This document shows positions 10,888 to 47,429 of a stretch of DNA of 64,000 nucleotides, one piece after another. This DNA is from Phenylobacterium sp. (GTDB lineage Bacteria; Pseudomonadota; Alphaproteobacteria; Caulobacterales; Caulobacteraceae). The DNA is taken from assembly GCF_030698145.1 (NCBI RefSeq), contig NZ_JAUYNW010000017.1, forward strand, positions 1-64,000. Direction: 5' to 3'. Both the position numbers and the translations under genes were made by a program. Position 1 is the first letter of the stretch. Each line of letters opens with the position of its first letter. Below the pieces are notes generated by a model. It had not been told where the DNA came from and searched no databases. It saw nothing but the letters and a program-made list of their open reading frames with translations.

Positions 10888-11268
10888 CTACCGATCATTC
10901 AGCTCGGCGACGGCGCATGGATAGCGCGCGGTAAGCGCCGCGGCGACCAAGGTTGCCGCCGCCGCACTTCGGGCCTTGGGGTGACGGTCGAGAAAGTCCA
11001 TCGCCGCGCCCCGCAGATCCTCGGCGATTACGGTCCGCAGCGGACAGAAGCTCTTGAGCTGTGGCGGTGTTTCGGCCTCCGCCGCCAGGATCTGGTCCGC
11101 CGACCCGACGATGTAACCGAGACAAAGGGCCGACCGCAGATCCGCCATATCGTCCGCCGGATGTGGCCGACAGTGTTCGTGGAGTTGCTGGCCGTCGAGG
11201 AAGCCGCGCAGGTCGGCGACCGGCGCGGTGGCGACGATGGCGGTGGCGAGCACGACCAGCCAGTTCAC
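10888..11268 (-). CDS. Rap1a/Tai-type immunity-like small secreted protein
   Basis: Signal-like N-terminus, LCLGYIVGSADQIL, FCPLRTVIAEDLRGAAMDFLDRHP, ending YPC; resembles the Rap1a/Tai domain. Confidence 0.6.
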   Translation of the reverse strand: MNWLVVLATAIVATAPVADLRGFLDGQQLHEHCRPHPADDMADLRSALCLGYIVGSADQILAAEAETPPQLKSFCPLRTVIAEDLRGAAMDFLDRHPKARSAAAATLVAAALTARYPCAVAELNDR

Positions 11269-12038
11269 TCCGCCACGCGCCGGCCCGGCCGCACGCCCTC
11301 CGCCAGCAAGCGCGCCCAGATATCCTCGGCGGTCTCGGCGAAATGGAAGAGTTCGAGGTCCTGCGCGCCGATCATGCCGTGGGCCAGCAGGCCCTCGAAG
11401 TTGATCACCGAGGTCCAGTAGGCGCGGTCGACAAGGACCACGGGGATGGGCGGGCTCTTTCCCGTCTGCCGCAGAGTCAGGATTTCGAAGAGCTCGTCGA
11501 GCGTCCCGAAGCCGCCCGGAAACACCACGAGGGCGTTGGCCCGCATCGCCAGGTGCATCTTGCGCATGGCGAAATAGTGGAAACGGAACGTCAGGGCCGG
11601 CGTGCTGTAGGGGTTGGGGGCCTGCTCTCTGGGCAGGGTGATGTTGAAGCCGATCGAGGGCGCGCCGGCGTCGTCCGCGCCGCGATTGGCCGCCTCCATG
11701 GCGCCCGGGCCGCCGCCGGTTGCGATGACGTTGTCTCGCTGCCCGCCCTCGGGCTGGAGCGCCCCGCCCCGCTCCGACGCCAGCTTGCCGAACAGGCGCG
11801 CCTGTTGGTACCAGCGGCGTTGGTCGGCGCTTCCCGCCTCGCCGAGGCGCGCGCTGCCGAAGACCACGATCGTCGACCTCACGCCCCAGGCGCGGAGGGC
11901 TTGGTCGGCCTTGGCGAACTCCAGCAGGAACCGGACGCCGCGCATGGAATCCCCCAACAGGAAGGGCTGGTCGAGGGCGGCCAGTTCATAGGAAGGCGAC
12001 GTCATCTGCGCCGCGTTGCCCGATGATTCCGCGCGCAT
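11265..12038 (-). CDS. LOG family / TIGR00730-type Rossmann-fold nucleotide-processing protein
   Basis: TGGGPGAMEAANRGA and FPGGFGTLDELFEILTLRQTGK. Confidence 0.9.
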   Translation of the reverse strand: MRAESSGNAAQMTSPSYELAALDQPFLLGDSMRGVRFLLEFAKADQALRAWGVRSTIVVFGSARLGEAGSADQRRWYQQARLFGKLASERGGALQPEGGQRDNVIATGGGPGAMEAANRGADDAGAPSIGFNITLPREQAPNPYSTPALTFRFHYFAMRKMHLAMRANALVVFPGGFGTLDELFEILTLRQTGKSPPIPVVLVDRAYWTSVINFEGLLAHGMIGAQDLELFHFAETAEDIWARLLAEGVRPGRRVAE

Positions 12039-12047
12039 CGAAGCCTC

Positions 12048-12881
12048 CTAGTGCGAGACCAGGAGGGCGGTCGGCGGATCGTCCATGAAATCGCGGCTGA
12101 CGCCGCCGAGGATCCGCTCGGCCAGCCGCGTGCGGCCGTAGAGCCCCATGACCAGCAGGTCGGCCTTCCAATCCTCGACCTGGCCGCGCAGCGTGTCGCT
12201 GACCGAGGCCTCCTCCGACGTCTCCACGAAGACCTCAACCTTGCAGCCGCGCCGTTCGAAGCGTTGATGCAGGATCGAGACGTCCGCCCGGTCGAACCGC
12301 GGCGACACCATGGCCACAGCCACATGGTCGGCGCCCGAGATCATCGGCCAGGCGTCACGCACGGCGCGGGCGGCCTCACGGCTTCCGTTCCAGGCGACCA
12401 GGACGCGGCGCCCAACGCTCGCCGGCTCCGGCGCGTCGGGCAGGACTAGCACCGGGCCTCCGCATCCGAACGCCAGCTCCGTGGGCGAGACATGGAATTC
12501 GCCTTGCGCAGGTGTCCGCCCCGGCGCGACCACGACTAGGTCCGCACCCCGAGCGCAATCGATGAAGCGTCGGGCCAAGTCCTGCTTGAGCCTGACCCAG
12601 TCGCAATCGACCTGGACGGCCTGGGTGGCGGCGCCAAGCCAGGCGCGAGCCTGTTGCTCCGCCCGGTTGACCGCCGCCTCGTGCGCCTCGAGCGCTGAGG
12701 TCAGCAGCGCCGGCGGGATCCACGCCCCTCCCGTCGCGGTGACCGGCATGGCGAAGGCCGGCTCGAGAAAGACCCCCGATAGATGGGCGCCGATGCTCTT
12801 GGCCAGGCGTACGACCTGGTTGCAGCGGCCTTGGGCCGCCGGATCGGCGTCCACCTCAACCAGAATGTCGCGATAGGTCAT
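12048..12881 (-). CDS. Universal stress protein family
   Basis: DILVEVDADPAAQGR start, LVAWNGSREAARAVRDAWP, DLLVMGLYGRTRLAERILGGVSRDFM. Confidence 0.9.
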   Translation of the reverse strand: MTYRDILVEVDADPAAQGRCNQVVRLAKSIGAHLSGVFLEPAFAMPVTATGGAWIPPALLTSALEAHEAAVNRAEQQARAWLGAATQAVQVDCDWVRLKQDLARRFIDCARGADLVVVAPGRTPAQGEFHVSPTELAFGCGGPVLVLPDAPEPASVGRRVLVAWNGSREAARAVRDAWPMISGADHVAVAMVSPRFDRADVSILHQRFERRGCKVEVFVETSEEASVSDTLRGQVEDWKADLLVMGLYGRTRLAERILGGVSRDFMDDPPTALLVSH

Positions 12882-12931: not shown

Positions 12932-12945
12932 TTGATCGTGCTCAA
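12932..12945. promoter_or_regulatory. FixK/FNR-type box TTGATCGTGCTCAA
   Basis: Exact TTGA-N6-TCAA, ~50 bp upstream of the USP start. Confidence 0.75.
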
Positions 12946-12974: not shown

Positions 12975-14051
12975 TCACGGCGTGATCGCCACCTTCAGCA
13001 CGCCGTCACGCTGGTGGCCGAAGAGCTCGTAGGCCGCTTCGATCTCGTCGAGCTTGAAACGGTGGGTCACGAGGGGCGAGAGGTCGATGCGGCCGGACCG
13101 CACCACCTCGATCAGGCGGCGCATGCGCTCCTTGCCGCCCGGGCAGAGCGTCGTGACCAGGGCGTGGTCGCCCAGGCCGGCGGCGAACGGCCCCAGCGGG
13201 ATCGTCAGGTCACCGGAATAGACGCCGAGGCTGGAAAGGGTCCCGCCGGGTCGCAGCACGCGCAACGCCGCCTCGAAGGTGGCCTGGGTCCCCAGGGCCT
13301 CGATGGCGACATCGACGCCGCGCCCATCGGTCAGCCGCAGGATCTCCGCCACGGGATCGACGCGGCTGGCGTCGACCACGTGATCGGCGCCCATGCGGCG
13401 GGCCATGGCCAGGCGGTCCGGTAGGCGGTCTACGCCGATGATCATGGTCGCGCCGCAGAGCTTTGCACCGGCTGTGGCGCAAAGGCCGATCGGGCCCTGG
13501 GCGAAGATTGCGACACTGTCGCCGATGCGAATCTTGCCGCTCTCGGCGCCGCCGAAGCCCGTGGACATGATGTCGGGACACATCAGCACCTGTTCGTCGG
13601 TCAGATCGTCAGGCACAGGGGCAAGGTTGACCATGGCGTCGGGAACTAGGACGTACTCAGCTTGGCACCCGTCGATGGTGTTGCCGAAGCGCCAGCCGCC
13701 CATGGGCTTCCAGCCGTGCGCTGTCCCCGCCCCGTCCTGGGCCCACCGACCGCACTGGCAGGCGTTGCTGTGGCCGCTGGGGGTGATGGCCCCGGCGATT
13801 ACCCGCTGGCCCTCGCTATAACCTTGGACGAGGCTTCCCAATTTCTCGATCACCCCCACCGGCTCGTGCCCGACGGTGAGGCCCCGGGCCACCGGGTATT
13901 CGCCCTTCAGGATGTGGACGTCGGTGCCGCAGATCGTTGTCGTGGTGATGCGGACCAAGGCGTCCAGCGGACCCACGTCGGGGAGCGGCTTGTCGTCGAG
14001 CACGATGCGTCCCGGCTCGACGAAGACGGCGGCTTTCATCATGGCGGCCAT
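12975..14051 (-). CDS. Zinc-dependent alcohol dehydrogenase family (MDR)
   Basis: TTICGTDVHILKGEYPV, GHEPVGVIEKLG, GVDRLPDRLAMARRMGADHVVDASR. Confidence 0.93.
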   Translation of the reverse strand: MAAMMKAAVFVEPGRIVLDDKPLPDVGPLDALVRITTTTICGTDVHILKGEYPVARGLTVGHEPVGVIEKLGSLVQGYSEGQRVIAGAITPSGHSNACQCGRWAQDGAGTAHGWKPMGGWRFGNTIDGCQAEYVLVPDAMVNLAPVPDDLTDEQVLMCPDIMSTGFGGAESGKIRIGDSVAIFAQGPIGLCATAGAKLCGATMIIGVDRLPDRLAMARRMGADHVVDASRVDPVAEILRLTDGRGVDVAIEALGTQATFEAALRVLRPGGTLSSLGVYSGDLTIPLGPFAAGLGDHALVTTLCPGGKERMRRLIEVVRSGRIDLSPLVTHRFKLDEIEAAYELFGHQRDGVLKVAITP

Positions 14052-14104
14052 GGGACCCTCCGGAATTGCGATCACCATCGGACCTCCGAGCCGGGGCCAG
14101 CGCC

Positions 14105-14118
14105 TTGATCGGCGTCAA
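14105..14118. promoter_or_regulatory. FixK/FNR-type box TTGATCGGCGTCAA
   Basis: Exact TTGA-N6-TCAA between divergent ADH and cytochrome c genes. Confidence 0.75.
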
Positions 14119-14171: not shown

Positions 14172-14624
14172 ATGGTCAAGCCCGCCCATGCCTGGGCCTT
14201 CACAGGGGCGGTCGTCCTGGCGGCGGCGGCGACGACGCTGGGTCTGGCTTCGCGGCCGCCGCCCATCAGCCACACCTCGCTCCACCTGTCGCCGCGCACA
14301 GTCGAGATGCCCGGTTTCGGCCGCGATCAGCTGCTTGGCCCTTCAGAGATTGAGGACCTGACCGAGTTTGTCCTGGCGCTCTCCATGCGATCGACGGACA
14401 ACGCCGCGGTGTTGCGCGCCCTCCCCCTCTACGAACGAAACTGCGCCGCGTGCCATGGCCTGGCCGGCGAAGGCGAGGCGATGACAGGCGTCCCAGACCT
14501 GACCGACGGCGTGTGGATCAACGGCGGTGCGCGCGAGGAGATCCGGACCCAGATCTGGCATGGCGCGGACGGTCGGGGTCCGCCGCGGCAAGTCCGTTCG
14601 AGCCCGGCGCCGCGCCTGCGCTAA
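14172..14624 (+). CDS. Orphan monoheme cytochrome c resembling the C-terminal part of CcoP
   Basis: MPGFGRDQLLGPSEIEDLTEFVLALS...NCAACHG...VPDLTDGVWINGGAREEIRTQIW parallels CcoP at 34084-34950. Confidence 0.75.
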   Translation: MVKPAHAWAFTGAVVLAAAATTLGLASRPPPISHTSLHLSPRTVEMPGFGRDQLLGPSEIEDLTEFVLALSMRSTDNAAVLRALPLYERNCAACHGLAGEGEAMTGVPDLTDGVWINGGAREEIRTQIWHGADGRGPPRQVRSSPAPRLR

Positions 14625-14681: not shown

Positions 14682-15014
14682 CTACTTCGGGGCCGGCGCC
14701 GCGTCTTTCGACATCATCGTCTCGCACTGCTTGTGGAGCTTCTCCATCTCCTCGGGCGACAGCTTCTTGCCCTGCGGCCAGGTCGGAGCGCCGGTCTTGT
14801 CGCGACCGTGATCGTGCGGCTGCTTCGCCGCCATCTTGGAGGCCATCACGGCCTTGCAATTTTCGTGCGTGGCTTCGGCTGCGCCGGCCGGCGTCGAGGC
14901 CACCGGCGGCGTTCCCGCGGTCGTGGGATGATGACCCGCATGGTCCTGTTGGGCGAGGGTCGGCCCGGCGGCGAACGCCGCGAAGCTGGCGACAGATATG
15001 AGTAGGGCGCGCAT
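14682..15014 (-). CDS. Small exported protein of unknown function (His-rich N-terminus after signal peptide)
   Basis: Signal peptide MRALLISVASFAAFAAGPTLAQQ then DHAGHHPTT; ORF 14682..15155 trimmed to this start. Confidence 0.6.
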   Translation of the reverse strand: MRALLISVASFAAFAAGPTLAQQDHAGHHPTTAGTPPVASTPAGAAEATHENCKAVMASKMAAKQPHDHGRDKTGAPTWPQGKKLSPEEMEKLHKQCETMMSKDAAPAPK

Positions 15015-15069: not shown

Positions 15070-15083
15070 TTGCGATGCGTCAA
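15070..15083. promoter_or_regulatory. Degenerate FixK/FNR-type box TTGCGATGCGTCAA
   Basis: One mismatch to TTGA-N6-TCAA, 56 bp upstream of 15014. Confidence 0.5.
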
Positions 15084-15224: not shown

Positions 15225-15238
15225 TTGATGTCCGTCAA
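15225..15238. promoter_or_regulatory. FixK/FNR-type box TTGATGTCCGTCAA
   Basis: Exact TTGA-N6-TCAA, 73 bp upstream of 15311. Confidence 0.75.
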
Positions 15239-15310: not shown

Positions 15311-15835
15311 ATGACCGCCACACCTTCGCCTATCCGTTCCCCGAGGCCGCTGGGCGTCATCCGCTGCGCCGCGTCGGCCGCGCTGAGTGTGACTGTCCTG
15401 TTCGCCCTCTGCTGGGTCGGGGCCGTCGCCGTCGAGAGCCAGTCACATATGTTCATTGCGCTGTTCACGACCCAGCCCGTCGCCTCGACGGCTGCGCTGG
15501 TTGAAGGCCTTTGCTGGTCGCTCGTGTTCGGCGCGCTCGCCGGCGCGCTCATCGCTGCGTTCTACAACCTGCTGCCGTTTCGATCGGCGCTGATCGCGAA
15601 CGACATAGGCCGAGCGACCCTCGGTCCATCGCCTGGGGAGAGGTCGGAAATGACCAAGTACGACTGGAAGCGTCCCGCCCTTATCGCCGCCGGTTCGGCC
15701 GCGCTCATCCTGATGTTCTATCTGCTCCGCGAGCATCGCGGGCACGCCGTGGGGTACCTGCCTTACCTGATCCTGGCGGTGTGTCCTTTTCTCCACCTGC
15801 TCCACGGCGGACATGGCAGAGGAGGAGATTCCTAG
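15311..15835 (+). CDS. Membrane protein: DUF5676-like N-terminus continuous with a DUF2933-like C-terminus
   Basis: LCWSLVFGALAGALIAAFYNLLPF; then MTKYDWKRPALIAAG...YLPYLILAVCPFLHLLHGGHGRGG in the same frame; internal ATG at 15650 has a GGGAGAGG ribosome-binding site. Confidence 0.65.
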   Translation: MTATPSPIRSPRPLGVIRCAASAALSVTVLFALCWVGAVAVESQSHMFIALFTTQPVASTAALVEGLCWSLVFGALAGALIAAFYNLLPFRSALIANDIGRATLGPSPGERSEMTKYDWKRPALIAAGSAALILMFYLLREHRGHAVGYLPYLILAVCPFLHLLHGGHGRGGDS

Positions 15836-16119: not shown

Positions 16120-16674
16120 TCAGGCGCCGGCGAACACCGCCCTCATCAGCTTCTCATAGGCGCCGCCCTTGGGCGGGGCCAGGGCGGCCGAACCGGCCAG
16201 GGCGACGATGCCGAGGTGGACGACCAGGCTCACGCCCAGATGGATAGCGCCGAGGACCAGGACCTGGGGCGTCGTTCCACCGGCGGCCGGCGTCGTGAAG
16301 CTTGGCAACAGGGCGAGGTAGAAGACCGCGGCCTTGGGATTGAGCACATTGGCCAGGAACCCCTGGGCCGCGAACCCGCCGTAGGACCGCCGCTCGTCGG
16401 CTGGGGTCGGCGCGATGTCCGGCGAGCCGCGCCAGGCGCCCAGCGCAAGCCACAGCAGGTAGCCGACGCCGGCAAGGCGAACGGCCTGGAACAGCCACGG
16501 CGCCCGCGCGGCGATCCCAGCCAGGCCGACGACGGTCGCGAGCAGGTAGAGCGCGAGGCCCAGGGTCACCCCGACCACGGTGGCCAGGCCGGCGGCGCGA
16601 CCGTGCCGCGCCGCCACCAGGCCGAGATAAGCCATGTTCGGCCCAGGCGGCAGCTCGACAAGGCCGACCGCCAC
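16120..16674 (-). CDS. LysE family translocator
   Basis: LPPGPNMAYLGLVAARHGRAAGLATVVGVTLGL, FLANVLNPKAAVFYLALLPSF; exact start uncertain. Confidence 0.85.
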   Translation of the reverse strand: MAVGLVELPPGPNMAYLGLVAARHGRAAGLATVVGVTLGLALYLLATVVGLAGIAARAPWLFQAVRLAGVGYLLWLALGAWRGSPDIAPTPADERRSYGGFAAQGFLANVLNPKAAVFYLALLPSFTTPAAGGTTPQVLVLGAIHLGVSLVVHLGIVALAGSAALAPPKGGAYEKLMRAVFAGA

Positions 16675-16723
16675 CAGGAACGGGACGATGCGGCCGGACT
16701 CGAAGAGCGCGTCCAGGACGGCC

Positions 16724-17029
16724 TCAGTCGGACGGCTGGGCGCGCCAGAAGGCCAGCCCGATCAGGGCGATGGCCGCGACGGCAATGGCGACGGCGGTCG
16801 CCGGATGCTGTCTGGCCTGGGCCACGGCTCGGTCGGTCAGGTCGCGGGACTGCTCGCGGGCCTCCACCGTGAAATCCCGGGCCGCGCGTTGGAGCTTGGT
16901 GGAAACGCGGGTGAAGTCGTCCCGCGCCTCCTCGCTGATGGCTTCGCCGGCCTTCTTCAGTTCGTGACCGATGTCGTCGAGGGCGTCATCGAGGTCGTTG
17001 GCGATCCTCTTGGCGACGGATTTGCTCAT
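16724..17029 (-). CDS. DUF883 (ElaB/YqjD)-like membrane-anchored protein
   Basis: Amphipathic helix followed by C-terminal TM ARQHPATAVAIAVAAIALIGLAFWRAQ. Confidence 0.7.
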   Translation of the reverse strand: MSKSVAKRIANDLDDALDDIGHELKKAGEAISEEARDDFTRVSTKLQRAARDFTVEAREQSRDLTDRAVAQARQHPATAVAIAVAAIALIGLAFWRAQPSD

Positions 17030-17056: not shown

Positions 17057-18685
17057 TCAGGAGACCGGGGCCGGCGCGTCGGCGCCTTGATCGCTGTCAA
17101 CAGGGATCTCCAGGGCCGCGCGCAGGTTGCGGATCAGGGCGCTGCGGGCCTCGTCCGACCTCGCGAGCTCGATGCGCCCATCGAGGTCGAGCAGGAAGGC
17201 GGCCCGCAGGTTGTGCCAATCCGGGCGCGAGACGGCGGCGGCCGCGAGCCGCGGCTTGCCTTGGGCGTCGACCGTGGCCTGGCCCTTGAGGAGGACGTAG
17301 CGCTCGTCGAGCGATGGGATCGCCAGCCGGTCCTCGGCGAAGCCCGCTGCAGCCAGCCGGCTCCTGAGGCCCTCAAGCGCCGGAGGTTCGCCGTGCGCGA
17401 GGAACACGCTGCCGCCCACCGGCGCCCGAGCCTTCGCCCAGGTGACGAGAGCGTCGGCGTCGGCATGGCCGGAATAGACATCCAGGGATCGGATCCGCGC
17501 CAGCACGCGAACGTCCTCGCCCTGGATGCGCACCCTTTCGGCGCCCTCCTCAAGAATCCGACCCAGCGTGCCGACGGCCTGATAGCCGGGCAGAAGTACG
17601 GTGGCTTGGCGCTGCCACAGGAGGCGTTTCAGGTGCTTTCGGACCCGACCGGCGTCGCACATGCCGCTGGCCGCCAGGATGATGTGCCAGCCCTTCAGGC
17701 GGTCGAGACGGTCGCTCTCCCAGGGCTCGCGCATGAACTTCAGCCGATCGTTGGCGTAGAGCCCCTGGAACGGATTGACGCCCGTCGCCCGGTTCCACCC
17801 GCGCCGGCGGAATACCTCGGTGGCTTCGATAGCGAGCGGGGAGTCCAAGAAGATGTCGGCCTCCGGCGCCTGACCGTCGGCCATGATCGCCAGGATGTCG
17901 GCCAGCAGCTCCTGCGAGCGTTCCACGGCGAAGGCCGGGATCAGCAGCGGCCCGCCCGCGGCGTGGGCGGCGTTGAGTTCTTGCGCCAGCATTTTGCGGC
18001 GCGTGGTCGGGTCGACGAGCAGGCGAGGCCGATCACCGTAGGTCGATTCCAGCACCAGGTGGTCGACCCCGGCCGGCCCTTCAGGGTCGGGGGAATAGTC
18101 CCGGCCGCCGGGCCCGATGTCGCCGGAGAACAGGATGGTGACGGGCCCCTCCTCGGTCTCGACGCATACCTGGATGGAGGCCGCGCCGAGGATGTGGCCC
18201 GCTTCCCAATAGGTCGCGGTTACGCCGGGAGCGACGGCGGCTCTCTCGCCCAGCTTCACCCGCTCGAAGAGTTCGGTGGTCTGTACGGCGTCGCGCACGG
18301 TGTAGATCGGCTCGACCTGGTCCCGGCCGCGCCGCTGATTGCGGCGGTTGAGCTGGCGGACCTCGCTTTCCTGGATGCTGCCGGCGTCGGGCAACATCAC
18401 ACCGCACAGGTCGCGGGTCGCCGCCGTCGCGAAGATCGGCCCCTCGAAACCCGCCTTCATCAGCTTGGGCAGCAAACCCGAGTGATCGATATGGGCGTGG
18501 GTCAGCAGCACGGCGTCGATCTTTGACGCCTCGAAGGGAAACGGCTCGTAGTTGAGCGCCTTGAGGGTCTTCGACCCCTGGAACATGCCGCAATCGACGA
18601 GCACGGTGGCGCGCCCGGTCTCGAGCCGGGCACAGAACCCGGTCACGCATCCGGCGGCGCCGTGAAATGTGAGCTTCAGGGGCAT
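17057..18685 (-). CDS. MBL-fold beta-CASP RNA-processing metallohydrolase
   Basis: LTHAHIDHSGLLPKL, FSGDIGPGG, beta-CASP region, YSGHADADALVTWAK, VFLAHGEPPALEGLR. Confidence 0.9.
   Translation of the reverse strand: MPLKLTFHGAAGCVTGFCARLETGRATVLVDCGMFQGSKTLKALNYEPFPFEASKIDAVLLTHAHIDHSGLLPKLMKAGFEGPIFATAATRDLCGVMLPDAGSIQESEVRQLNRRNQRRGRDQVEPIYTVRDAVQTTELFERVKLGERAAVAPGVTATYWEAGHILGAASIQVCVETEEGPVTILFSGDIGPGGRDYSPDPEGPAGVDHLVLESTYGDRPRLLVDPTTRRKMLAQELNAAHAAGGPLLIPAFAVERSQELLADILAIMADGQAPEADIFLDSPLAIEATEVFRRRGWNRATGVNPFQGLYANDRLKFMREPWESDRLDRLKGWHIILAASGMCDAGRVRKHLKRLLWQRQATVLLPGYQAVGTLGRILEEGAERVRIQGEDVRVLARIRSLDVYSGHADADALVTWAKARAPVGGSVFLAHGEPPALEGLRSRLAAAGFAEDRLAIPSLDERYVLLKGQATVDAQGKPRLAAAAVSRPDWHNLRAAFLLDLDGRIELARSDEARSALIRNLRAALEIPVDSDQGADAPAPVS
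17087..17100. promoter_or_regulatory. FixK/FNR-type box TTGATCGCTGTCAA inside the 3' end of the beta-CASP CDS
   Basis: Exact TTGA-N6-TCAA, 58 bp upstream of the DUF883-like gene. Confidence 0.6.
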
Positions 18686-18729
18686 GGTGGGGTTTCCGTG
18701 TTGAGCGCGGCGGTGGCCATCGGTCCGCA

Positions 18730-19179
18730 TCAGTGGGCGATCCGCGCCGCCTGCAGGGCTTCGCGCAGCACTTCCTCGGCCAGGCTTGACCTGTCGCGCG
18801 GCGCGTCGACCTCGATGCGGCGCGCGGTCTTGGGATCGAGCTCGGCGCGCAGAACCCCCAGCACGCGGGCCGGCGCCAGCAGCACAAGGCGCTCAAACAG
18901 TCCGGCCGAGGCCGCGGCGTCCAGGGCGTGGGCGACGCGCGTGAGGAAACGGCGCTCCTGGATTTGAGTCAGCGGCTTGTCCCCGCTGCCCTGCCGGCCG
19001 AAGCCCGCGCGGTCGTGCACCGTGGCCCGATGGGCGTGCGCCGTCGGGCGGTCCTGATTGTCGGCCTCGATGCTGTATTGCGGCAAGGGATGCAGCGGGC
19101 CGCCGCGCACGCGTTCCTCGAACACCCGCGCCTGGCGCCCGTCGGCGGTGACGACCCAGGTCGTGACGTCTTCCATCAT
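18730..19179 (-). CDS. Host attachment protein family (baeRF/eRF1-like)
   Basis: TWVVTADGRQARVFEE, LVLLAPARVLGVLRAELDPKTARRIEVDAPRDRS. Confidence 0.75.
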   Translation of the reverse strand: MMEDVTTWVVTADGRQARVFEERVRGGPLHPLPQYSIEADNQDRPTAHAHRATVHDRAGFGRQGSGDKPLTQIQERRFLTRVAHALDAAASAGLFERLVLLAPARVLGVLRAELDPKTARRIEVDAPRDRSSLAEEVLREALQAARIAH

Positions 19180-19229
19180 GGGAACCTCCATCCTTGAGGC
19201 GACGATGGAGACCCGCCATCGGGCACGCT

Positions 19230-19243
19230 GTGACGACGATCAA
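19230..19243. promoter_or_regulatory. FixK/FNR-like box GTGACGACGATCAA
   Basis: One mismatch, in the divergent intergenic region. Confidence 0.5.
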
Positions 19244-19300
19244 ACCCAGGCGCGAGAGTCTGGGTTCCTATCGGCGCGCCGTCGGCTGCAGGAGACCCCC

Positions 19301-19912
19301 ATGAGGCACGCGCTCATCATCGCCCACCCCAATCCGAAGAGCTTCACCCACAGCGTCGCGCGCGCCTACAGCACCGCCATCGCCGCCCAGGGCCATGAGG
19401 TGGTCGAGCGCGACCTCTACGCCATGGGCTTCGACCCGTGCCTGAAGCGCGAGGAAGTCCCAACCGGAGAGGGCTACCAAACCAGCCCCGACGCGGCGGC
19501 TGAACGCGCCCGGCTCGCCGCTGTCGATGTCTTCGCCTTCTTCTATCCGTGGTGGTTCAACGCCCCGCCGGCGATCCTGAAGGGCTATGTGGACCGGATC
19601 TTCTGCACCGGCTTCGGCTATCGACCCGGTTTTGGCGGGACCGAACCCATGCTCACCGGCCGCAAGCTGATCAGCTTCAGTTCCTCCGGCGCACCGGACA
19701 GCTGGGTGCGCCAGACTGGAGCCCTGAGCAGCCTGATCGCCGTCTTCGATTGCCACCTGGCCGCGGTCTGCGGCCTGCAGCTTGTCGACCACGTCCACCT
19801 CGGTGGCGTGGTCCCAGACATCACCCAAGAGTCGGTCGAAGACATGCTGGCCGAGGTGCGCGCCGCCGCCGCCCGGGCGTTTCCACCAGTCGGCGTCCCT
19901 GCCTCCGTATGA
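19301..19912 (+). CDS. NAD(P)H-dependent oxidoreductase, flavodoxin-like fold (KefF/quinone reductase type)
   Basis: MRHALIIAHPNPKSFTHSVARAY, FFYPWWFNAPPAILKGYVDRIFCTGFGY. Confidence 0.92.
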   Translation: MRHALIIAHPNPKSFTHSVARAYSTAIAAQGHEVVERDLYAMGFDPCLKREEVPTGEGYQTSPDAAAERARLAAVDVFAFFYPWWFNAPPAILKGYVDRIFCTGFGYRPGFGGTEPMLTGRKLISFSSSGAPDSWVRQTGALSSLIAVFDCHLAAVCGLQLVDHVHLGGVVPDITQESVEDMLAEVRAAAARAFPPVGVPASV

Positions 19913-19998
19913 CTACCTAGGGGGCGCTGCTTAGGGGGCGTTCCCGAATTTCGAGCCGACCGCCATGGGCCTAGCCATAGGTCAACAGGAGGCTCGAC

Positions 19999-20661
19999 AT
20001 GTCCTATATCCAATCCTTCGACGACACCCGCGCCGCACTCGGCCCCGCCGAGGTCGGTCCCGACGATCTGATGTCACGCATCGGCGTGCGGATGACCTTC
20101 GCCAAGGACGAGGAGATCTACGGCCAGGGCGAGAACGCCGACCTGATCTACCGCGTGATCAGCGGGACCGTGCGCACCTCGCGCTTCATGGCCGACGGAC
20201 GCCGGCCGATCGGCGACTTCTACTATGCGGGCGACCTGTTCGGCCTGGAGACCGGCGACGAGCACGCCATGGGCGCCGAGGCGCTCAGCGACTGCACGAT
20301 CCTGGTGGCCAACCGGCAGGCCCTGCGCGCCGCGGGCGGAGAGGACGAACTCAAGCGTCTGGTCTGGGAAGCGACCGTTCGTGACCTGGACAGCGCCCGC
20401 CAGCACCTGACCCTGCTGGTCCGCAAGACCGCCTGCGAGCGGGTCGCGAGCTTCCTGCTGGGCCTGGCCAATCGCCGCCGGGGGGGCCACGTGGAACTCG
20501 CCATGGGGCGGCAGGACACGGCCGACTACCTGGGCCTGACCATCGAGACCGTCTCGCGGATGATCACCCAGCTCCAGGCCGCCAAGGTCGTGGAATTCAA
20601 GGGCAGCCGGCTGTTCCGGATCTGCGACGCCGAGGCCCTGCAGGAGATGGCCGCGGGTTGA
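19999..20661 (+). CDS. fixK: Crp/Fnr family regulator, FixK-like (no N-terminal Fe-S cysteine cluster)
   Basis: cNMP-like domain plus HTH MGRQDTADYLGLTIETVSRMITQLQAAKVVEFKGSRLFRI. Confidence 0.85.
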   Translation: MSYIQSFDDTRAALGPAEVGPDDLMSRIGVRMTFAKDEEIYGQGENADLIYRVISGTVRTSRFMADGRRPIGDFYYAGDLFGLETGDEHAMGAEALSDCTILVANRQALRAAGGEDELKRLVWEATVRDLDSARQHLTLLVRKTACERVASFLLGLANRRRGGHVELAMGRQDTADYLGLTIETVSRMITQLQAAKVVEFKGSRLFRICDAEALQEMAAG

Positions 20662-20671
20662 CCGCCGTCAA
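20658..20671. promoter_or_regulatory. FixK/FNR-type box TTGACCGCCGTCAA overlapping the fixK stop codon
   Basis: Exact TTGA-N6-TCAA; TGA at 20659-20661. Confidence 0.7.
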
Positions 20672-35847: not shown

Positions 35848-35858
35848 GGTCGGGTCCC

Positions 35859-37575: not shown

Positions 37576-37589
37576 TGATTTCAGTCAAG
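37576..37589. promoter_or_regulatory. FixK/FNR-type box TTGATTTCAGTCAA
   Basis: Exact TTGA-N6-TCAA, 62 bp upstream of ccoN and 50 bp upstream of the divergent 37639 ORF. Confidence 0.85.
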
Positions 37590-37638: not shown

Positions 37639-37914
37639 ATGCACGCGAACGAGCCATTGGATGCGGGAGCCGTCGCCGGGGCGCTGTGCTTGCTGGCGTC
37701 GGCCGGCAGCGCCGCCCTGGCATGGGCCCACATGCGCGCGATCGACCAGATGGGAATCATCTGCGGCGCGCCGTTGGAGCCGCACTGCGGTTGGTGCGCC
37801 TCGGCCCTGATCCTGGGTCTCTTCGGGGTCGCCCTGGGCGCTGGAACGCCTCGCCTTGCCCGGCGCCGGATTCCCGCCACCGCCAAGACCCGCGTCTCCG
37901 GAGAACACCTGTGA
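37639..37914 (+). CDS. Hypothetical small membrane protein
   Basis: Two predicted TM segments; CGAPLEPHCGWC cysteine motif. Confidence 0.6.
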   Translation: MHANEPLDAGAVAGALCLLASAGSAALAWAHMRAIDQMGIICGAPLEPHCGWCASALILGLFGVALGAGTPRLARRRIPATAKTRVSGEHL

Positions 37915-38462
37915 ACCAGCGCCCCCTGTTGATCGTCTCGGCGATCCTGTTGAGCCTCCCGGCCTATGCGACCCAGGCCCAGCCCGCCAAACCTCGCAGC
38001 CAGGCCGAACAGACCTTGCGCGCCATGGACGCCCACGCTCACTCGGCGGCCGACCGCGCCATCGATGCGGCGAGTTCGGCGGCGCAGTCGGCGATCAAGG
38101 CGCTGGACACGGCCGAGACGGCGCTGCGCGAGGTGACCCGCGAGAGCGCCGACGCGTCGCGAACCGCCTCGCAGGAGGCGGAGGCCGCCGCTGTGGCGGC
38201 CGCCGCACGGGCCAAGGAAGCCTTCGCCCGGGGATCGGCCGACACGCGAATCGCCGCCGACCGATCCGTGAAGGCCGCCCGGAGCGCCGCCGAGGAAACG
38301 GCCAGGGCGGCGCAGACCGCCCAGGCCGCCGATCAGGCCACGACCCAGGAGACCCTTCGGGCGGCGCGCGACGCCGCCAAAGCGTCCGCCGACGCCGCGG
38401 CCAAGGCGCTCGACACCATGCAGGTCGCGGTCCGTCGGGCGAAAAAGGACCACGCCTACTAA
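37911..38462 (+). CDS. Exported Ala-rich helical/coiled-coil protein
   Basis: Signal peptide LLIVSAILLSLPAYATQA then uninterrupted Ala-rich helix; GTGA overlap with the previous gene. Confidence 0.55.
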   Translation: MNQRPLLIVSAILLSLPAYATQAQPAKPRSQAEQTLRAMDAHAHSAADRAIDAASSAAQSAIKALDTAETALREVTRESADASRTASQEAEAAAVAAAARAKEAFARGSADTRIAADRSVKAARSAAEETARAAQTAQAADQATTQETLRAARDAAKASADAAAKALDTMQVAVRRAKKDHAY

Positions 38463-38531: not shown

Positions 38532-38545
38532 TTGAGCGGCGTCAA
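38532..38545. promoter_or_regulatory. FixK/FNR-type box TTGAGCGGCGTCAA
   Basis: Exact TTGA-N6-TCAA, 62 bp upstream of 38607. Confidence 0.75.
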
Positions 38546-38606: not shown

Positions 38607-39131
38607 ATGACCGCGAAAGACGCCCACCCACCCGTCGAGATCGACGGCGCCGACGAACACGAAATTCAACGCCTGATCATCGAGATCCTGGACGAGAACC
38701 GGCTGATGAGCATCGGCGTCAATCGCCCCGATGGCTGGCCTCAGGTCACGGTGGTGAACTACCTGCGGCAGGGTCGGGCCCTCTATTTCGTGGTGGCCCG
38801 CGACAGCCAGAAGTTCGCCAACATCAGCCGCGACTCGCGGGTGTCCATCGCCATCGGCGGCGGGGCCGGCCGAGAGGCTCCGGTTCGCGGCCTTTCCATG
38901 GCCGCGCGCGTCAGCGAGGTCCTCGAGCCCGATCGGATTGAACAGCTCAACAAGCTGATCTGGAGCCGTCCCGCCGAGGCCGCATTCACTCCCCACCCCA
39001 GCTCGGCGAATGTGGCGGTGCTGGAGGCCCGGCCGCAGATCGTCTCGGTGATCGACTACGCCACCCCGCCCGGTCGCCGGGTCTTGGTGCGGGTCGTCGA
39101 CGAGTGGCGCGTCGAACGCGTCTCCCCCTGA
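38607..39131 (+). CDS. Pyridoxamine 5'-phosphate oxidase family (FMN-binding split barrel)
   Basis: LMSIGVNRPDGWPQVTVVNYLRQGRALYFVVARDSQKFANI. Confidence 0.85.
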   Translation: MTAKDAHPPVEIDGADEHEIQRLIIEILDENRLMSIGVNRPDGWPQVTVVNYLRQGRALYFVVARDSQKFANISRDSRVSIAIGGGAGREAPVRGLSMAARVSEVLEPDRIEQLNKLIWSRPAEAAFTPHPSSANVAVLEARPQIVSVIDYATPPGRRVLVRVVDEWRVERVSP

Positions 39132-41770
39132 CCCGACGGGCTGAGGGTTCGCAAACGAAGCATAAGGGCCAGCCAGCCGCCGCTCACCACGGCGACCAGC
39201 AGGGCCATCGCCAGCAGCCGAGCATCCGGAAGCGCCATGCCGAACACCTTGGCCAGGGCCGGGACGGCCAGGACGAGGGCAAGGACGCTTGAGGCGGCCG
39301 CGGCGATCGACCAGTAGGCCCAGCGATGCGTCGCCAGGAGCCGCCCGCCGACCGGCACCGCATCGGCGAGCGCGAGCACGAGGTTGCCGCCGACAAGGGC
39401 GATGAAAGCCGCCCCTCGAGCTTGCGGTTCGGAATAGGCTTCCAGAGCCCAGGCGTAGACGCCGAACACGCCCAAGAGGACCCCGCCGCCCTGGACCAGA
39501 GCCAGGGCGAGTTGAGCGGGCCCAAACAGCGCCTCGTCCGGGCGTCGCGGCGGACGAGTCATGGCGTCGGCCTCGCTGGGCTCGCCTTCGAAGACCAGGG
39601 CGCACACCGGATCGATGACCAGCTCCAGCAACACCACGTGCATTGGGAACAGCAGCGGCGGCATGCCCAGGACGATCGGCCCCAGAGCCAGGCCGGCGAT
39701 TGGCACATGGATGGCGGTGACATAGGTCAGCGCCTTGCGCAGGTTGATGAAGATGCGCCGGCCGAGGCGCACCCCGCCGACGATCGCAGCGAAGCTGTCG
39801 TCCAGCAGCACGAGATCGGCGGCCTCGCGGGCGACGTCGGTCCCCCTTTTCCCCATGGCGACGCCGATATGGGCCGCCTCCAGCGCCGGGGCGTCGTTGA
39901 CCCCGTCGCCGGTCATGGCGACGACCTCGCCGTTGGCCTTGAGCGCCTCCACGAGCCGGAGCTTCTGCTCCGGAATCATACGGGCGAAGACCCGCGCGGT
40001 CCGAAGCCGCTCGCGGAGCATGGGCGTCGACATCGCAGCGACCTCGGGGCCCGTGATCACGCCCGCGGAGGTGTCGATCCCGGCGGTCTCGGCGATCGCC
40101 CGAGCGGTGGCCGGATGGTCGCCGGTGATCATCACCACCGCAATCCCGGCGGCGTGCGCCTCGCGCAAGGCGCCGGGTACGTCGGCGCGGACCGGGTCGA
40201 GGAAGCCGACCAGGCCGGCGAACTGGAATTCAGCCGATTGGGGATCGTCGGGAAAGGCGCCCTCGGCCTGCGAGGAGGCGACGCCCAGCACCCGCAAGCC
40301 CTGGCGGGCGAAGTCGTCGACCACATCATGGAGACGCCTCACCTCGCGGTCGGACAGCCTGCAGAGGCGGAAGATCGCTTCCGGCGCGCCCTTGGCCGCG
40401 GCAAGCCGCATCGCGCCGTCTTTCCGCCAAGCCTGGATGACCGCCATCCGGTCGGGCCGGAGCGGCCAGCAACGTTCGGGTTCGAAGGCTTCAAGTCCAG
40501 GCTCGGTGGAGGCCCCGCGCAGGCGTTCGCGGATCGCCCGGTCCATGGGATCGACCGGGCGGACGGCCGAGGCCAGGCCGGCCAGCTGCAGCAGTTGAGC
40601 CGTTTCGTCCGCCAGGGCCCCAGAGTCCTGGATCGCGACGTCGCCAGCCTCGGTCCAGAGGCGCGCGACCTCCATCCGGTTCTCGGTGAGCGTGCCGGTC
40701 TTGTCCACGCAGAGCACGGTGGCCCCACCCAGTGTCTCGATCACCGCGCTTCGGCGGACCAGCACTCTGTGGGTCGCTAACCTCCAGGCGCCCAGAGCAA
40801 GGAAGACGGCCAGCACCATCGGGAACTCTTCCGGGACCAGCGCGATGGCCGCGGTAACGCCGGCCAGCACGCCGCCCGCCCAATCCTCGCGGATCAGCCC
40901 GTAGGCGACCGCCACCAGAACGCAGTAGCCGAGCGCCAGCAAACCGAGCAGACCGACGAGCCGGCCGGCCTTGCGCTGCAGGGGCGTGGGTTCCTGGCCG
41001 ATAGCGGCGAGCGAGGCGCCGATGCGGCCCAACTCCGTATCTCCGCCTGTCCGGGTGACCTGCGCCACGCCCTGCCCTCGCACCACTAGCGCGCCGGCGA
41101 ACAGGTGCGGGCCTAGCTCCGCGCCGGGCGCCGCATCGCCGGTGAACGCCTCGCCGGCCTCCATCCATCGCTTCGACACCGGCGCGGACTCACCGGTCAG
41201 CGCCGATTCATCGACCCCAAGCATGTCCCCCGCCACCAAGAGGCCGTCGGCCGGCAGCCGCTCGCCCTCTCCCACCAGAATGATGTCGCCAACCACCAGT
41301 TCGCGGGCCGGAATCCGTCGCTCGGCGCCGCCGCGGATCACCCGCGCGAAGGGTTGCGCCAGGTCGCGCAGGGCCGCCATCGCCCGTTCGCTGCGCGCCT
41401 CCTGCAAGATAACCAGGCCGATCGTGGCCAGCGCCCCGGCCAGGATGAACAGGCCCTCGCCGAGGTCGCCCAAAGCCAGGTAGAGGACGGCGGCGACCAT
41501 GAGCAGGATGAACATGGGCTCGCGCATGGTTTCGACGGCGATCCGCAGGAGCCCTCGCCCGGCGGCGCGCGGAAGCTCATTGGCGCCGTCCTGGAGCAGC
41601 CGCTGCGCGGCCTGCTCTTCGCTCAGTCCTCGAAGCGGCTCGGCGGCCACAACGAGAAGGCTGGCCACGTCCAACTCGACCCGCGAGGCCGGGAGGTCGC
41701 GCGCGCCAAGGTGGCGCACAGCGTCGGCGCCCAGGCCCGGGGCGGCGGCCGGCTTGTCGTGGAGAGACAT
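39056..41770 (-). CDS. Cation-translocating P-type ATPase (P2-like)
   Basis: VDESALTGESAPVSK, VCVDKTGTLTENRM, MTGDGVNDAPALEAAHIGVAMG. Confidence 0.94.
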   Translation of the reverse strand: MSLHDKPAAAPGLGADAVRHLGARDLPASRVELDVASLLVVAAEPLRGLSEEQAAQRLLQDGANELPRAAGRGLLRIAVETMREPMFILLMVAAVLYLALGDLGEGLFILAGALATIGLVILQEARSERAMAALRDLAQPFARVIRGGAERRIPARELVVGDIILVGEGERLPADGLLVAGDMLGVDESALTGESAPVSKRWMEAGEAFTGDAAPGAELGPHLFAGALVVRGQGVAQVTRTGGDTELGRIGASLAAIGQEPTPLQRKAGRLVGLLGLLALGYCVLVAVAYGLIREDWAGGVLAGVTAAIALVPEEFPMVLAVFLALGAWRLATHRVLVRRSAVIETLGGATVLCVDKTGTLTENRMEVARLWTEAGDVAIQDSGALADETAQLLQLAGLASAVRPVDPMDRAIRERLRGASTEPGLEAFEPERCWPLRPDRMAVIQAWRKDGAMRLAAAKGAPEAIFRLCRLSDREVRRLHDVVDDFARQGLRVLGVASSQAEGAFPDDPQSAEFQFAGLVGFLDPVRADVPGALREAHAAGIAVVMITGDHPATARAIAETAGIDTSAGVITGPEVAAMSTPMLRERLRTARVFARMIPEQKLRLVEALKANGEVVAMTGDGVNDAPALEAAHIGVAMGKRGTDVAREAADLVLLDDSFAAIVGGVRLGRRIFINLRKALTYVTAIHVPIAGLALGPIVLGMPPLLFPMHVVLLELVIDPVCALVFEGEPSEADAMTRPPRRPDEALFGPAQLALALVQGGGVLLGVFGVYAWALEAYSEPQARGAAFIALVGGNLVLALADAVPVGGRLLATHRWAYWSIAAAASSVLALVLAVPALAKVFGMALPDARLLAMALLVAVVSGGWLALMLRLRTLSPSGQGETRSTRHSSTTRTKTRRPGGVA

Positions 41771-41819: not shown

Positions 41820-41833
41820 TTGATCGAAATCAC
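41820..41833. promoter_or_regulatory. FixK/FNR-like box TTGATCGAAATCAC
   Basis: One mismatch, 50 bp upstream of the P-type ATPase. Confidence 0.55.
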
Positions 41834-41885: not shown

Positions 41886-42611
41886 TCAAGCCAGGTTGGC
41901 CGCCGGCGGGAGCGTGACCCGAACGGTCAGACCGGCGTCCTGGGACCTGAACTCGATGCGCGCGCCAAGCTGCTTGCCGAGCGCGCGCATCAGCCGCAGG
42001 CCCAGCCCGCCGCCCGAGGCCGCATCAACCGCGACTGGCAGACCCGGTCCATTATCGGCGATTTCGATGACCAGCGCACCGAGCCGCGGTTGGCGGCTCC
42101 GAACCAGGATCTTGCCCGCCTGCCCTGGGGCATAGGCATGCTTGACGGCATTGGTGATCGCCTCGGAAACAATCTGGGTGAGCGGAAGGATCTGGTCGGT
42201 CGGCGCCCGGCATCCGGGTGCGAAGTCCTCGACCAGTTCGATCCTGCCGGTCAGGAGAGACGCCAGCGGCGCGCAAACCTCGTGCAGATGTTCGCTGAGG
42301 TCGGCGGATGTGCGCCGTCCGTTCGCGGCCAGCGACCGATGCAGCCGGGCGATCGCCTCGATCTGAGTCCGGATGCTCTCAAGGAACAGCTGGACGGATT
42401 CACCTGTGGGCTCGGCGGGGGACTGGCGGGCCATCTCGATGGCTTTCAGGCGCGCGAAGGCGGCCAGCATGGACAGGTGGTTGGCGATCCGATGATTGGC
42501 CTCCTCGATGAGGCGGCAGTCGTCGCAGAGGCTGCTGCGGCCGGTGGGGGGTGTTGGGCCTTGGCGGGCGTCGGTGGCGCCCGCGTCGGCGACTGCATCG
42601 GGCATGATCAT
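41886..42611 (-). CDS. Sensor histidine kinase (HisKA_2/HWE-like), no recognised sensor domain
   Basis: IEEANHRIANHLSMLAAFARLKA, SEAITNAVKHAYAPG, NGPGLPVAVDAASGGGLGLRLMRALGKQL. Confidence 0.85.
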   Translation of the reverse strand: MIMPDAVADAGATDARQGPTPPTGRSSLCDDCRLIEEANHRIANHLSMLAAFARLKAIEMARQSPAEPTGESVQLFLESIRTQIEAIARLHRSLAANGRRTSADLSEHLHEVCAPLASLLTGRIELVEDFAPGCRAPTDQILPLTQIVSEAITNAVKHAYAPGQAGKILVRSRQPRLGALVIEIADNGPGLPVAVDAASGGGLGLRLMRALGKQLGARIEFRSQDAGLTVRVTLPPAANLA

Positions 42612-42679: not shown

Positions 42680-42693
42680 TTGACCATCGTCAA
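42680..42693. promoter_or_regulatory. FixK/FNR-type box TTGACCATCGTCAA
   Basis: Exact TTGA-N6-TCAA, 69 bp upstream of the histidine kinase. Confidence 0.75.
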
Positions 42694-44980: not shown

Positions 44981-45109
44981 ATGGGACTTCATACGCTGGC
45001 GGTGCTGCGGTCTTTCGAGGCGGCCCTCGTCGCCCAGCAGGTCCGCAAGCGCCGTCGCCTGGCGAGGCGTGCGAATGATCGCCCGGTCCGAAAAGAGGCG
45101 TCCGGCTGA
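44981..45109 (+). CDS. Putative 42-aa basic small protein, TGATG-coupled to the SulP gene
   Basis: MGLHTLAVLRSFEAALVAQQVRKRRRLARRANDRPVRKEASG; stop overlaps the next ATG. Confidence 0.35.
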   Translation: MGLHTLAVLRSFEAALVAQQVRKRRRLARRANDRPVRKEASG

Positions 45110-46791
45110 TGTCGCATGACTGGCGCCTGTTCATTCCCAAGACCGTGACGGTCCTGCGCCAGGGCTACGGCCTGGCGCCGTTCCGCGGCGATGTCGTCGC
45201 CGGCCTGACGGTGGCGATCATCGCCATGCCGCTGGCCATGGCGCTGGCCATCGCGTCGGGAACCACGCCGGAGCGCGGCCTGATCACCGCGGTGGTCGCC
45301 GGCTTCCTGATCTCATTCCTCGGCGGCAGCCGATTCCAGATTGGCGGACCGACCGGAGCCTTTGTCGTCGTGGTCTATGGCGTGATCGCCAAGCACGGAT
45401 ACGATGGTCTGCTGATCGCCACGACGATGGCGGGCCTCATCCTGATCGCCGCGGGGCTCCTTCGCATCGGGACCCTGATCAAGTACATTCCCGATCCGGT
45501 CACGACCGGGTTCACGACCGGCATCGCCACCATCATCCTGGTCAGCCAGCTGAAGGACATCTTCGGCCTCTCGATCGAGCGCGTCCCCGCCGACATCATT
45601 CCCAAGCTGCAGGCGCTCTGGGGTGCGCGCGCCAGCCTGAGCCTTCCCACCCTGACCCTTGCGGTCATCTGTTTCGTCGCGATCATGACGTTGCGGCGCT
45701 TGGCGCCGAAGATTCCGGGCTTCCTCGTGGTGACGGTCGCCGCGGCGGTGGCGGTCACCCTGCTGGCCTTACCGGTCGAGACGATCGGCACGCGGTTCGG
45801 GGGCGTATCCTCCACCCTGCCCCCGCCGAACCTCACGTTCTGGTCATGGACGAAGGCGCGCGATGTCCTACCGAGCGCCCTCACCATCGCGTTGCTCGCC
45901 GGTGTCGAGTCGCTGCTGTCGGCCGTCGTCGCCGATCAGATGACGGGTCGGCGGCATCGCTCCAATATCGAGCTGGTGGCCCAGGGGATCGCCAACATCG
46001 CTTCGGCCGCTTTCGGCGGCCTGCCGGCGACCGGCGCCATCGCGCGCACCGCGACCAATATCCGCTCCGGCGCCCACTCTCCGGTGGCCGGCATGCTGCA
46101 CGCGGCCTTCCTGCTGCTCTTCATGCTGCTGCTCTCGCCCCTGGCCAAGTATGTGCCGCTGGCGGCCCTGGCGGCCATCCTGGTGGTGGTCGCGATCAAT
46201 ATGGCCGAGCTGCAACGCTTCCGGCTGCTGCTCGGCACATCCAACGGCGACCGGGCCGTCTTGCTGCTGACCTTCGGGCTGACGGTCGTCGTGGATCTGA
46301 CGCTGGCCATCGAGGTCGGCATGGTGCTGGCCGCCTTCGTGTTCATGCATCGCATGAGCCAGCTCTCCACCGTGGAGGGCGGCGGCCCGGCCCTCATCGA
46401 CGGCGACCGGGACGACTTCAACCGCGCGGACGAGCCGGCCTACGAACCCCATGAGGGTTTGCCCCACGATACCGCGGTGATCACCTTCAGGGGTCCCTTG
46501 TTCTTCGGCAGCACCAGCGTGCTGAAGGACGCCCTTGACCAGATCGGCGGCCGCAGCCGGCGCTACATCCTGAGGTTCGAGGAGGTTCCGCTGATCGATC
46601 CGACCGGAGCCGCCGCCCTTTCGTCGTTCCTTCGCCGCGCCATCCAGGACGGCGCCGAGATCGTCGTCTGCGGCGCCCGTGACAGCGTGCGGACCAATCT
46701 CCTGCGCACGGTGGAGGCCCACGTCCTGGAGAAGGTCGGGTTCGCACCGGACTTCGCCACGGCCCGCGCCGCCACGACGGCGGTCGCATGA
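45109..46791 (+). CDS. SulP family inorganic anion transporter with C-terminal STAS domain
   Basis: PFRGDVVAGLTVAIIAMPLAMALAIASG, FQIGGPTGAFVVVVYG; STAS YILRFEEVPLIDPTGAAALSSFL. Confidence 0.94.
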   Translation: MSHDWRLFIPKTVTVLRQGYGLAPFRGDVVAGLTVAIIAMPLAMALAIASGTTPERGLITAVVAGFLISFLGGSRFQIGGPTGAFVVVVYGVIAKHGYDGLLIATTMAGLILIAAGLLRIGTLIKYIPDPVTTGFTTGIATIILVSQLKDIFGLSIERVPADIIPKLQALWGARASLSLPTLTLAVICFVAIMTLRRLAPKIPGFLVVTVAAAVAVTLLALPVETIGTRFGGVSSTLPPPNLTFWSWTKARDVLPSALTIALLAGVESLLSAVVADQMTGRRHRSNIELVAQGIANIASAAFGGLPATGAIARTATNIRSGAHSPVAGMLHAAFLLLFMLLLSPLAKYVPLAALAAILVVVAINMAELQRFRLLLGTSNGDRAVLLLTFGLTVVVDLTLAIEVGMVLAAFVFMHRMSQLSTVEGGGPALIDGDRDDFNRADEPAYEPHEGLPHDTAVITFRGPLFFGSTSVLKDALDQIGGRSRRYILRFEEVPLIDPTGAAALSSFLRRAIQDGAEIVVCGARDSVRTNLLRTVEAHVLEKVGFAPDFATARAATTAVA

Positions 46792-47429
46792 TCCCGCTTC
46801 GAAGCGTCCAGACGGCTGGCGGCGAAGTGGCGGTCATCCTGCGCCGGTCCGATCGCGCCGTCGGCTATGTGAAAGACGGGGTGCTGCAGACGCTGATCGA
46901 CGCCCGCGGCCACAACCTCGCGCCGCATGTGAACGCTGCGGTGGATGTCCTGCTGCAGGAGAAGGTTCGCCAGGCGCTCGTGCTGGGCTATGGCGGCGGC
47001 GCGGCCTCGACCATGCTGCACCGAGCTGGCGTGGATGTGTTCGCTGTGGACTGCGATCCCTGCGCCAAGCCGCTGGCGCAGCTCTTCTTTCGGGCCCCGC
47101 CCTGCCTCGATGTGGTTGTCAGCGACGCCGCGGCCTACGTCGAGTGGGCCGCGGCGACCTCCTTCGACGGCGTCCTCATCGATTTCCAGGACTCTATCGA
47201 GACGCCCAAGGCCTATTTGTCCCAGTCCTTCTGGCGGGCGGTGGCGAGGGTGCTTCGTCCCAGAGGCATGGCCGTCGTCAACGTGACCCCGTGGCTTCAT
47301 GGCGGACCCGACTGGCGGACGTTTCAAGGCGCCCTCGGCCTGGGCGGCTTCGACGCGGTGGCGCTGAGTGATGAGCACGGCGCCGGCAACCGGATTCTGG
47401 TGACCGTTCGCGGCGCCGCGGCGACATAG
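46788..47429 (+). CDS. Spermidine synthase-like / class I methyltransferase-fold protein
   Basis: ALVLGYGGGAASTMLHRAGVDVFAVDCDP, FDGVLIDFQDSIETP; ATGA overlap with SulP. Confidence 0.78.
   Translation: MIPLRSVQTAGGEVAVILRRSDRAVGYVKDGVLQTLIDARGHNLAPHVNAAVDVLLQEKVRQALVLGYGGGAASTMLHRAGVDVFAVDCDPCAKPLAQLFFRAPPCLDVVVSDAAAYVEWAAATSFDGVLIDFQDSIETPKAYLSQSFWRAVARVLRPRGMAVVNVTPWLHGGPDWRTFQGALGLGGFDAVALSDEHGAGNRILVTVRGAAAT

Follow-up and report, generated by a model that had tools for sequence, protein, structure and literature searches.

The 64,000-nucleotide window analysed here, from Phenylobacterium sp. (contig NZ_JAUYNW010000017.1, positions 1 to 64,000), carries between positions 10888 and 47429 what is very probably an island of low-oxygen genes run by a FixL-FixJ-FixK cascade. 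A reading of the letters without database searches (hereafter the sequence-only reading) had proposed a dense FixK-type regulon at this place, and the proposal agrees with our results, as fixLJ, fixK and the cbb3 oxidase genes all lie in the region and the boxes fit the FixK/FNR site. Its members turned out to be less "uncharacterised" than claimed; several of the same gene types already appear in published Bradyrhizobium and Caulobacter work, among them FixK2 targets (PMC9104804). The island is a compact example of a known system, with a few additional members; what is new is an orphan HWE histidine kinase gene with a box kept in nearly all close orthologues, boxes that double as stop codons, and the unusual concentration of the sites. 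The genes, the boxes, their enrichment and spacing, and the boxes at orthologous genes were all established from the sequence.

Exact boxes (TTGA-N6-TCAA) and a stricter form (TTGAY-N4-RTCAA) were counted by pattern matching over the whole assembly (4,014,324 bases in 147 contigs, 90.8% complete, 5.1% contamination), with the reversed pattern as the control. Nine exact boxes are present in the window, at 12932, 14105, 15225, 17087, 20658, 27291, 37575, 38532 and 42680, and they span about 30 kb (12932-42693). Genome-wide, 23 exact boxes were found against 11 matches of the control. The density outside the 36.5-kb region predicts 0.13 exact boxes within it, and the nine observed correspond to a density about 70-fold that outside (Poisson P 2.4e-14), so the comparison of inside and outside suggested by the sequence-only reading did not return an equal density across the genome. 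The stricter form is gathered in the same way, with six of its eight genome-wide sites falling in the region. When up to one mismatch was allowed, 24 sites were found in the window, while shuffled sequences gave a mean of 6.2 and a maximum of 12. The 13 boxes listed earlier are all present: besides the nine exact ones they comprise four single-mismatch boxes (15070, 19230, 29756 and 41820), and one exact position is corrected from 37576 to 37575. That the flanking blocks of the window lack boxes holds for the exact form; six one-mismatch sites occur there, at the background rate, and the best-scoring two (52378 and 59481) are inside predicted coding sequence.

The boxes are also placed regularly with respect to genes. 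With gene starts predicted by a codon-score reading, the centres of all nine exact boxes lie 57.5-79.5 bp from a predicted start codon, which bears out the earlier statement that the boxes stand upstream of starts; positions 55-81 bp from a start make up 2.8% of the region. Such a spacing is what would be expected if the box were centred near -41.5 relative to the start of transcription and a short leader followed, an arrangement reported for FNR sites in Sphingopyxis (PMC7713065). Three boxes share their TGA with the stop codon of the upstream gene, namely fixK (exact box TTGACCGCCGTCAA, 20658..20671), fixJ (exact box TTGAGGCTCGTCAA, 27291..27304) and, on the minus strand, fixS (one-mismatch box TTGACCGATGTCAC, 29756..29769), and the overlap at the fixJ stop codon is also found in two relatives (G086 and G033).

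To relate these boxes to those of other genomes, 20 fixK loci from 19 Caulobacterales genomes (732 kb around fixK) were compared. Around fixK, these relatives hold 57 exact boxes, whereas the control pattern matched twice; the boxes are about 11 times as dense there as in the remainder of the genomes. Boxes precede the orthologues of the universal stress protein (USP), DUF883-like, flavodoxin-fold, FixT-like and ccoN genes, with no control match. Boxes were found at 9 of 20 USP1-class orthologues, both orthologues of the DUF883-like gene 16724, and all five ccoN orthologues in Caulobacterales. The BON, PNPOx, P-type ATPase and HWE kinase orthologues were counted in about 119 genomes of the family with which the window's genome groups, probably the Caulobacteraceae. 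A box was accepted between positions -180 and +20 relative to the estimated start, and no control match occurred in these upstream regions. An exact box was present at 11 of 29 BON orthologues, at 11 of 29 PNPOx orthologues, and at 5 of 29 HWE kinase genes, all five among the six closest orthologues and none among distant kinases. Boxes at orthologues thus lend independent support to most of the proposed members (the USP, BON, PNPOx, DUF883-like and HWE kinase genes), and the P-type ATPase gene is weak in this respect. The same regulon is arranged unevenly among relatives: the share of exact boxes that lie near fixK is 9 of 23 here, 8 of 16 in G007, and 0-22% in the other compared genomes. A mobile-island origin is unsupported, with no tRNA in the window and an even G+C content. 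The flanks of the boxes in the window are skewed to GCC-TTGA...TCAA-GGC, a skew that is weaker in the 57 sites of the relatives and is not seen in the outside sites within coding sequence; the FixK site in this group may extend past 14 bp.

Within the region, the regulators themselves form a recognisable circuit. The genes fixL (25194-26693) and fixJ (ending at 27294) adjoin each other on the plus strand (25194..27294). FixL possesses a PAS domain and a FixL-type histidine kinase by Pfam, with FixL structures as its top structure matches, and is predicted to be a haem-PAS kinase that binds haem; FixJ consists of a receiver and a LuxR-type helix-turn-helix domain. The gene fixK (19999..20661, plus strand) encodes a protein of the Crp/FNR fold with the recognition helix ETVSR, which matches FixK2 of B. 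japonicum (4i2o) with 158 bits and the best FNR with 76 bits. No cysteine was read in its N-terminal part, and the FNR-type Fe-S cysteine set is thus absent. Unlike Bradyrhizobium FixK2, which has a redox-sensitive Cys183, this FixK has Gly at the inferred position, where the FixK2 crystal (C183S) has Ser. The fixK promoter (19913..19998, plus strand) contains no FixK box and carries a conserved FixJ-like motif, CTACCTAG. This motif, of the TAC[CTG]TA type, was found upstream of fixK in 9 of 20 related loci, with its longer form occurring once in the window, and is presumably the FixJ site.

Directly after fixJ, Pfam identified a single-domain receiver gene with a conserved Cys (27364..27741, plus strand), which was missing from the earlier list of members. 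Being receiver-only, located in the fixLJ locus and preceded by a FixK-type promoter box, its product fits FixT, the inhibitor of FixL (PMC7078487), and is termed FixT-like here. Most relatives have either an exact box or its TTGCG form in the fixJ-fixT gap, while three (G136, G146 and G141) have an ACGTA motif there instead. A Cys ahead of the VLD motif is kept in most orthologues and may correspond to C64, which has been called broadly conserved in FixT (PMC7078487).

The cbb3 oxidase genes ccoN (35859-37514), ccoO (about 35113-35847), ccoQ and ccoP (from 34084), together with fixG, fixH, fixI and fixS (29766-29921), occupy 29766..37514 of the minus strand. The exact box TTGATTTCAGTCAA (37575..37588) lies between ccoN (minus strand, 67.5 bp) and the open reading frame (ORF) 37639 (plus strand, 57.5 bp). 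On the minus strand, hemN (28319..29665) encodes an oxygen-independent coproporphyrinogen III oxidase, with TIGR00538 over the cut-off.

Several observations weigh against the assignment to a FixK island. The case for this organism is made from sequence only, and the assembly is incomplete and partly contaminated. With the NCBIfam FixT model, the product of the receiver gene reaches 46.5 bits, below the cut-off of 150, which is why it is called FixT-like and not FixT. The predicted start of hemN is 97.5 bp away from the box at 29756, exact boxes were found at only 4 of 27 P-type ATPase orthologues, with the closest ones mostly lacking them, and the four listed one-mismatch boxes belong to a class that is not enriched in number: it has 685 sites in the genome, and 9 of them fall in the region, where 6.2 would be expected (P 0.18). 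Given that one-mismatch sites are near the background density, each of them needs other support. A possible reading, although clearly a less probable one, is that only the nine exact boxes and a few others are regulatory, so that hemN and the P-type ATPase, host-attachment and 14682 genes would not be direct members. The background density and the scarcity of boxes at ATPase orthologues argue for it. However, all four listed one-mismatch boxes lie 45-98 bp from starts, and in relatives the TTGCG form is seen again at the FixT gene. In addition, TTGC variants are among the published FixK2 sites, and the targets of FixK2 include hemN2 and host-attachment genes (PMC9104804). The four listed boxes thus have no statistical support by count, and position and homology back them unevenly. 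Five further one-mismatch sites in the region, at 11644, 18561, 20898, 29691 and 39512, were absent from the earlier list.

We consider it improbable that the boxes serve another Crp/FNR-family regulator, of the FNR, DNR or NnrR type, with FixK in a secondary role. The sites of FNR, FixK and DNR hardly differ from one another (PMC2908626), and the assembly lacks about 9% of the genome. However, a single close FixK/FNR homologue was found in the assembly, and of three other strong Crp-type helix-turn-helix matches outside the window, the two whose sequences were read completely carry another recognition helix (VQRTTVT). In addition, fixK sits within the cluster, and Caulobacter species are without FNR, their FixK running those genes as its proposed replacement (PMC2908626). 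Chance or base composition is next to negligible as an explanation: short degenerate motifs are common and one-mismatch matches are unenriched, but shuffling gave at most half the matches found, the control is nearly empty in the relatives, and for the exact class the genome-wide counts, controls and geometry rule it out.

For an island of the FixL-FixJ-FixK type, falling oxygen would cause FixL to phosphorylate FixJ, and FixJ would activate fixK through the FixJ-type site. FixK dimers would then bind the TTGA-N6-TCAA boxes and activate transcription from a position about 41.5 bp ahead of its start. The induced genes would include those for the cbb3 oxidase and for its assembly, hemN, and the gene of the putative FixT-like feedback inhibitor of FixL, along with operons for energy-poor conditions, which encode USPs, the BON protein, a PatZ-like acetyltransferase, the alcohol dehydrogenase, host-attachment/baeRF-type proteins, the PNPOx-like protein, the P-type ATPase and the HWE kinase. 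Binding by FixK, the direction of regulation, the dependence on oxygen and the functions of the accessory genes are what we infer from this arrangement. The mycobacterial DosR dormancy regulon is likewise a low-oxygen regulon that is rich in USPs, includes a P-type cation ATPase and flavin proteins, and stands under a haem sensor kinase; its regulator and box are unrelated to those of FixK, and the likeness is functional only. A near-complete and compact FixLJ-FixK-FixT module, from a group for which a replacement of FNR by FixK has been proposed, allows the sensor, the regulator, the feedback gene and most consensus targets to be studied together. Box conservation would also mark little-studied genes (BON, PNPOx-like, DUF883-like, DUF2933 and HWE kinase) as low-oxygen genes, whose putative roles are directly testable.

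The orphan soluble HWE/HisKA_2 histidine kinase gene (41886..42611, minus strand) has the exact box TTGACCATCGTCAA (42680..42693) 75.5 bp from its start. We speculate that with most of the FixK regulon gathered in one module and this kinase under direct FixK control, the oxygen cascade might have a conserved branch in this lineage that feeds a second phosphorelay, such as the one behind the general stress response. No published report of a link between FixK and an HWE kinase was found, nor was a description of such a FixK-fed phosphorelay branch found in the literature. Next to the kinase gene, the P2-type cation ATPase gene (39056..41770, minus strand) lies 56.5 bp from the one-mismatch box TTGATCGAAATCAC (41820..41833), which has the top score among the listed one-mismatch boxes.

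At the left end of the island, an operon on the minus strand (10888..12881) encodes by Pfam a USP (12048-12881), a LOG-like Lysine_decarbox protein (11265-12038) and a Rap1a-like protein (10888-11268), with the exact box TTGATCGTGCTCAA (12932..12945) upstream, its centre 57.5 bp from the USP start. The exact box TTGATCGGCGTCAA (14105..14118) lies between a zinc-dependent alcohol dehydrogenase gene (12975..14078, minus strand, Pfam) and a truncated CcoP-like cytochrome c ORF (14172..14624, plus strand, from Pfam and a six-frame reading), 33.5 bp and 60.5 bp from their starts. This ORF has one CxxCH and goes out of frame ahead of the C-terminal part of its homologues; it may be a second copy, now decayed, behind the box at 14105. 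The one-mismatch box TTGCGATGCGTCAA (15070..15083), a TTGCG form like the FixT-gene boxes in relatives, is 62.5 bp from the start at 15014 of a gene for a 110-aa predicted secreted protein containing His and Met (14682..15014, minus strand, no family). The exact box TTGATGTCCGTCAA occupies 15225..15238, and a DUF2933 membrane protein is encoded at 15311..15835 (plus strand, Pfam).

The exact box TTGATCGCTGTCAA (17087..17100) is located within the 3' end of the metallo-beta-lactamase-type (MBL) gene at 17057-18730, 64.5 bp from the start at 17029 of a minus-strand pair (16120..17029) encoding a DUF883-like membrane protein (16724-17029), which has no family match at threshold, and a LysE-type translocator (16120-16674). 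Also on the minus strand (17057..19191, Pfam) are genes for a host-attachment/baeRF-type protein (18730-19191) and a beta-CASP metallo-hydrolase (17057-18730). The one-mismatch box GTGACGACGATCAA (19230..19243) lies between the host-attachment gene and a gene for a Flavodoxin_2/NAD(P)H oxidoreductase-type protein (19298..19912, plus strand, Pfam), whose orthologues have boxes.

After fixK, a plus-strand operon (20742..24987) encodes a triple-BON protein (20742-21392), a USP (about 21440-22267) and a PatZ-like CoA ligase-GNAT fusion (22291-24987). The last had been read as an acyl-CoA synthetase; its layout is that of PatZ, an NDP-forming CoA ligase with a C-terminal GNAT domain, and the structures 9it0 and 9isq were matched over residues 1-863. 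These protein acetyltransferase structures lack the SHTG His motif, whereas the PatZ-like protein retains it, which makes ligase activity possible, and the fusion may still be an active CoA ligase. Beyond ccoN, two plus-strand genes without families (37639..38462) encode a 91-aa membrane protein (37639-37914) and an Ala-rich exported protein (37911-38462). The Ala-rich protein had been listed as a member, but its gene is not directly behind a box; the 91-aa ORF is. The exact box TTGAGCGGCGTCAA occupies 38532..38545, and a PNPOx-like flavin protein is encoded at 38607..39131 (plus strand). The island's right edge has a receiver-like ORF and a gene for a SulP transporter, with a methyltransferase-fold gene on either side (42920-43549 and 46788-47429); these two genes are similar in size, and neither has an exact box close by.

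The FixK regulon probably extends beyond the island. Most of the 14 outside exact sites are inside predicted coding sequence and were ruled out as targets, and the site C132:41250 has no gene start nearby. The site C42:29818, 73.5 bp before an OmpW-like gene, is the sole outside exact site clearly looking real, and this gene is likely a FixK target. The form TTGCG-N4-RTCAA occurs at 13 sites genome-wide, near background. Contig C13 (stretch 116000-135999, 4675-12555) contains three TTGCG-type boxes in 8 kb, one of them 63 bp before an MBL hydrolase operon with phosphorylase-like and phosphoribosyl pyrophosphate-synthase-like genes, as named from their sequences. This operon, which resembles the FixK2-linked operon bll3117-bll3115 of Bradyrhizobium (PMC9104804), is a likely FixK target outside the island; the other two TTGCG forms are less convincing, and a second box cluster on C13 was rejected.

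Among known systems, the FixLJ-FixK-FixT system of Caulobacter crescentus shares the regulators and the absence of FNR, and its FixK activates ompW, ccoN and fixT among other genes (PMC3751524, PMC7078487). What differs from C. crescentus is that a single island holds most consensus boxes here, that the FixT-like gene comes after fixJ and is without the 4-Cys motif of Caulobacter, and that operons for the HWE kinase, the BON protein, the PNPOx-like protein and the P-type ATPase are added. The FixK2 regulon of Bradyrhizobium diazoefficiens, including bll4634-blr4655, has the same box and the same gene types as matched by product names: its FixK2-dependent genes with boxes encode USP, host-attachment, PNPOx, DUF2933, MBL hydrolase and HemN2 proteins (PMC9104804), and several of these gene products are induced as proteins under microoxia (PMC6515984). 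Zinc-dependent alcohol dehydrogenase and USP genes were predicted in FixK/FNR core regulons by Dufour et al., where OmpW is a member of the alphaproteobacterial core regulon, and in the FnrL core regulon of Rhodobacter sphaeroides the same box serves the cbb3, fixGHIS, USP, hemN and OmpW genes (PMC2908626). FnrL is an Fe-S FNR, whereas the FixK described here is without cluster cysteines and stands under FixLJ. Outside the alphaproteobacteria, another dense, putative FNR-type island, judged by its box content, is present in the betaproteobacterium Castellaniella denitrificans (315-17810), where nine exact boxes within 22.6 kb surround a gene orthologous to the PatZ-like one.

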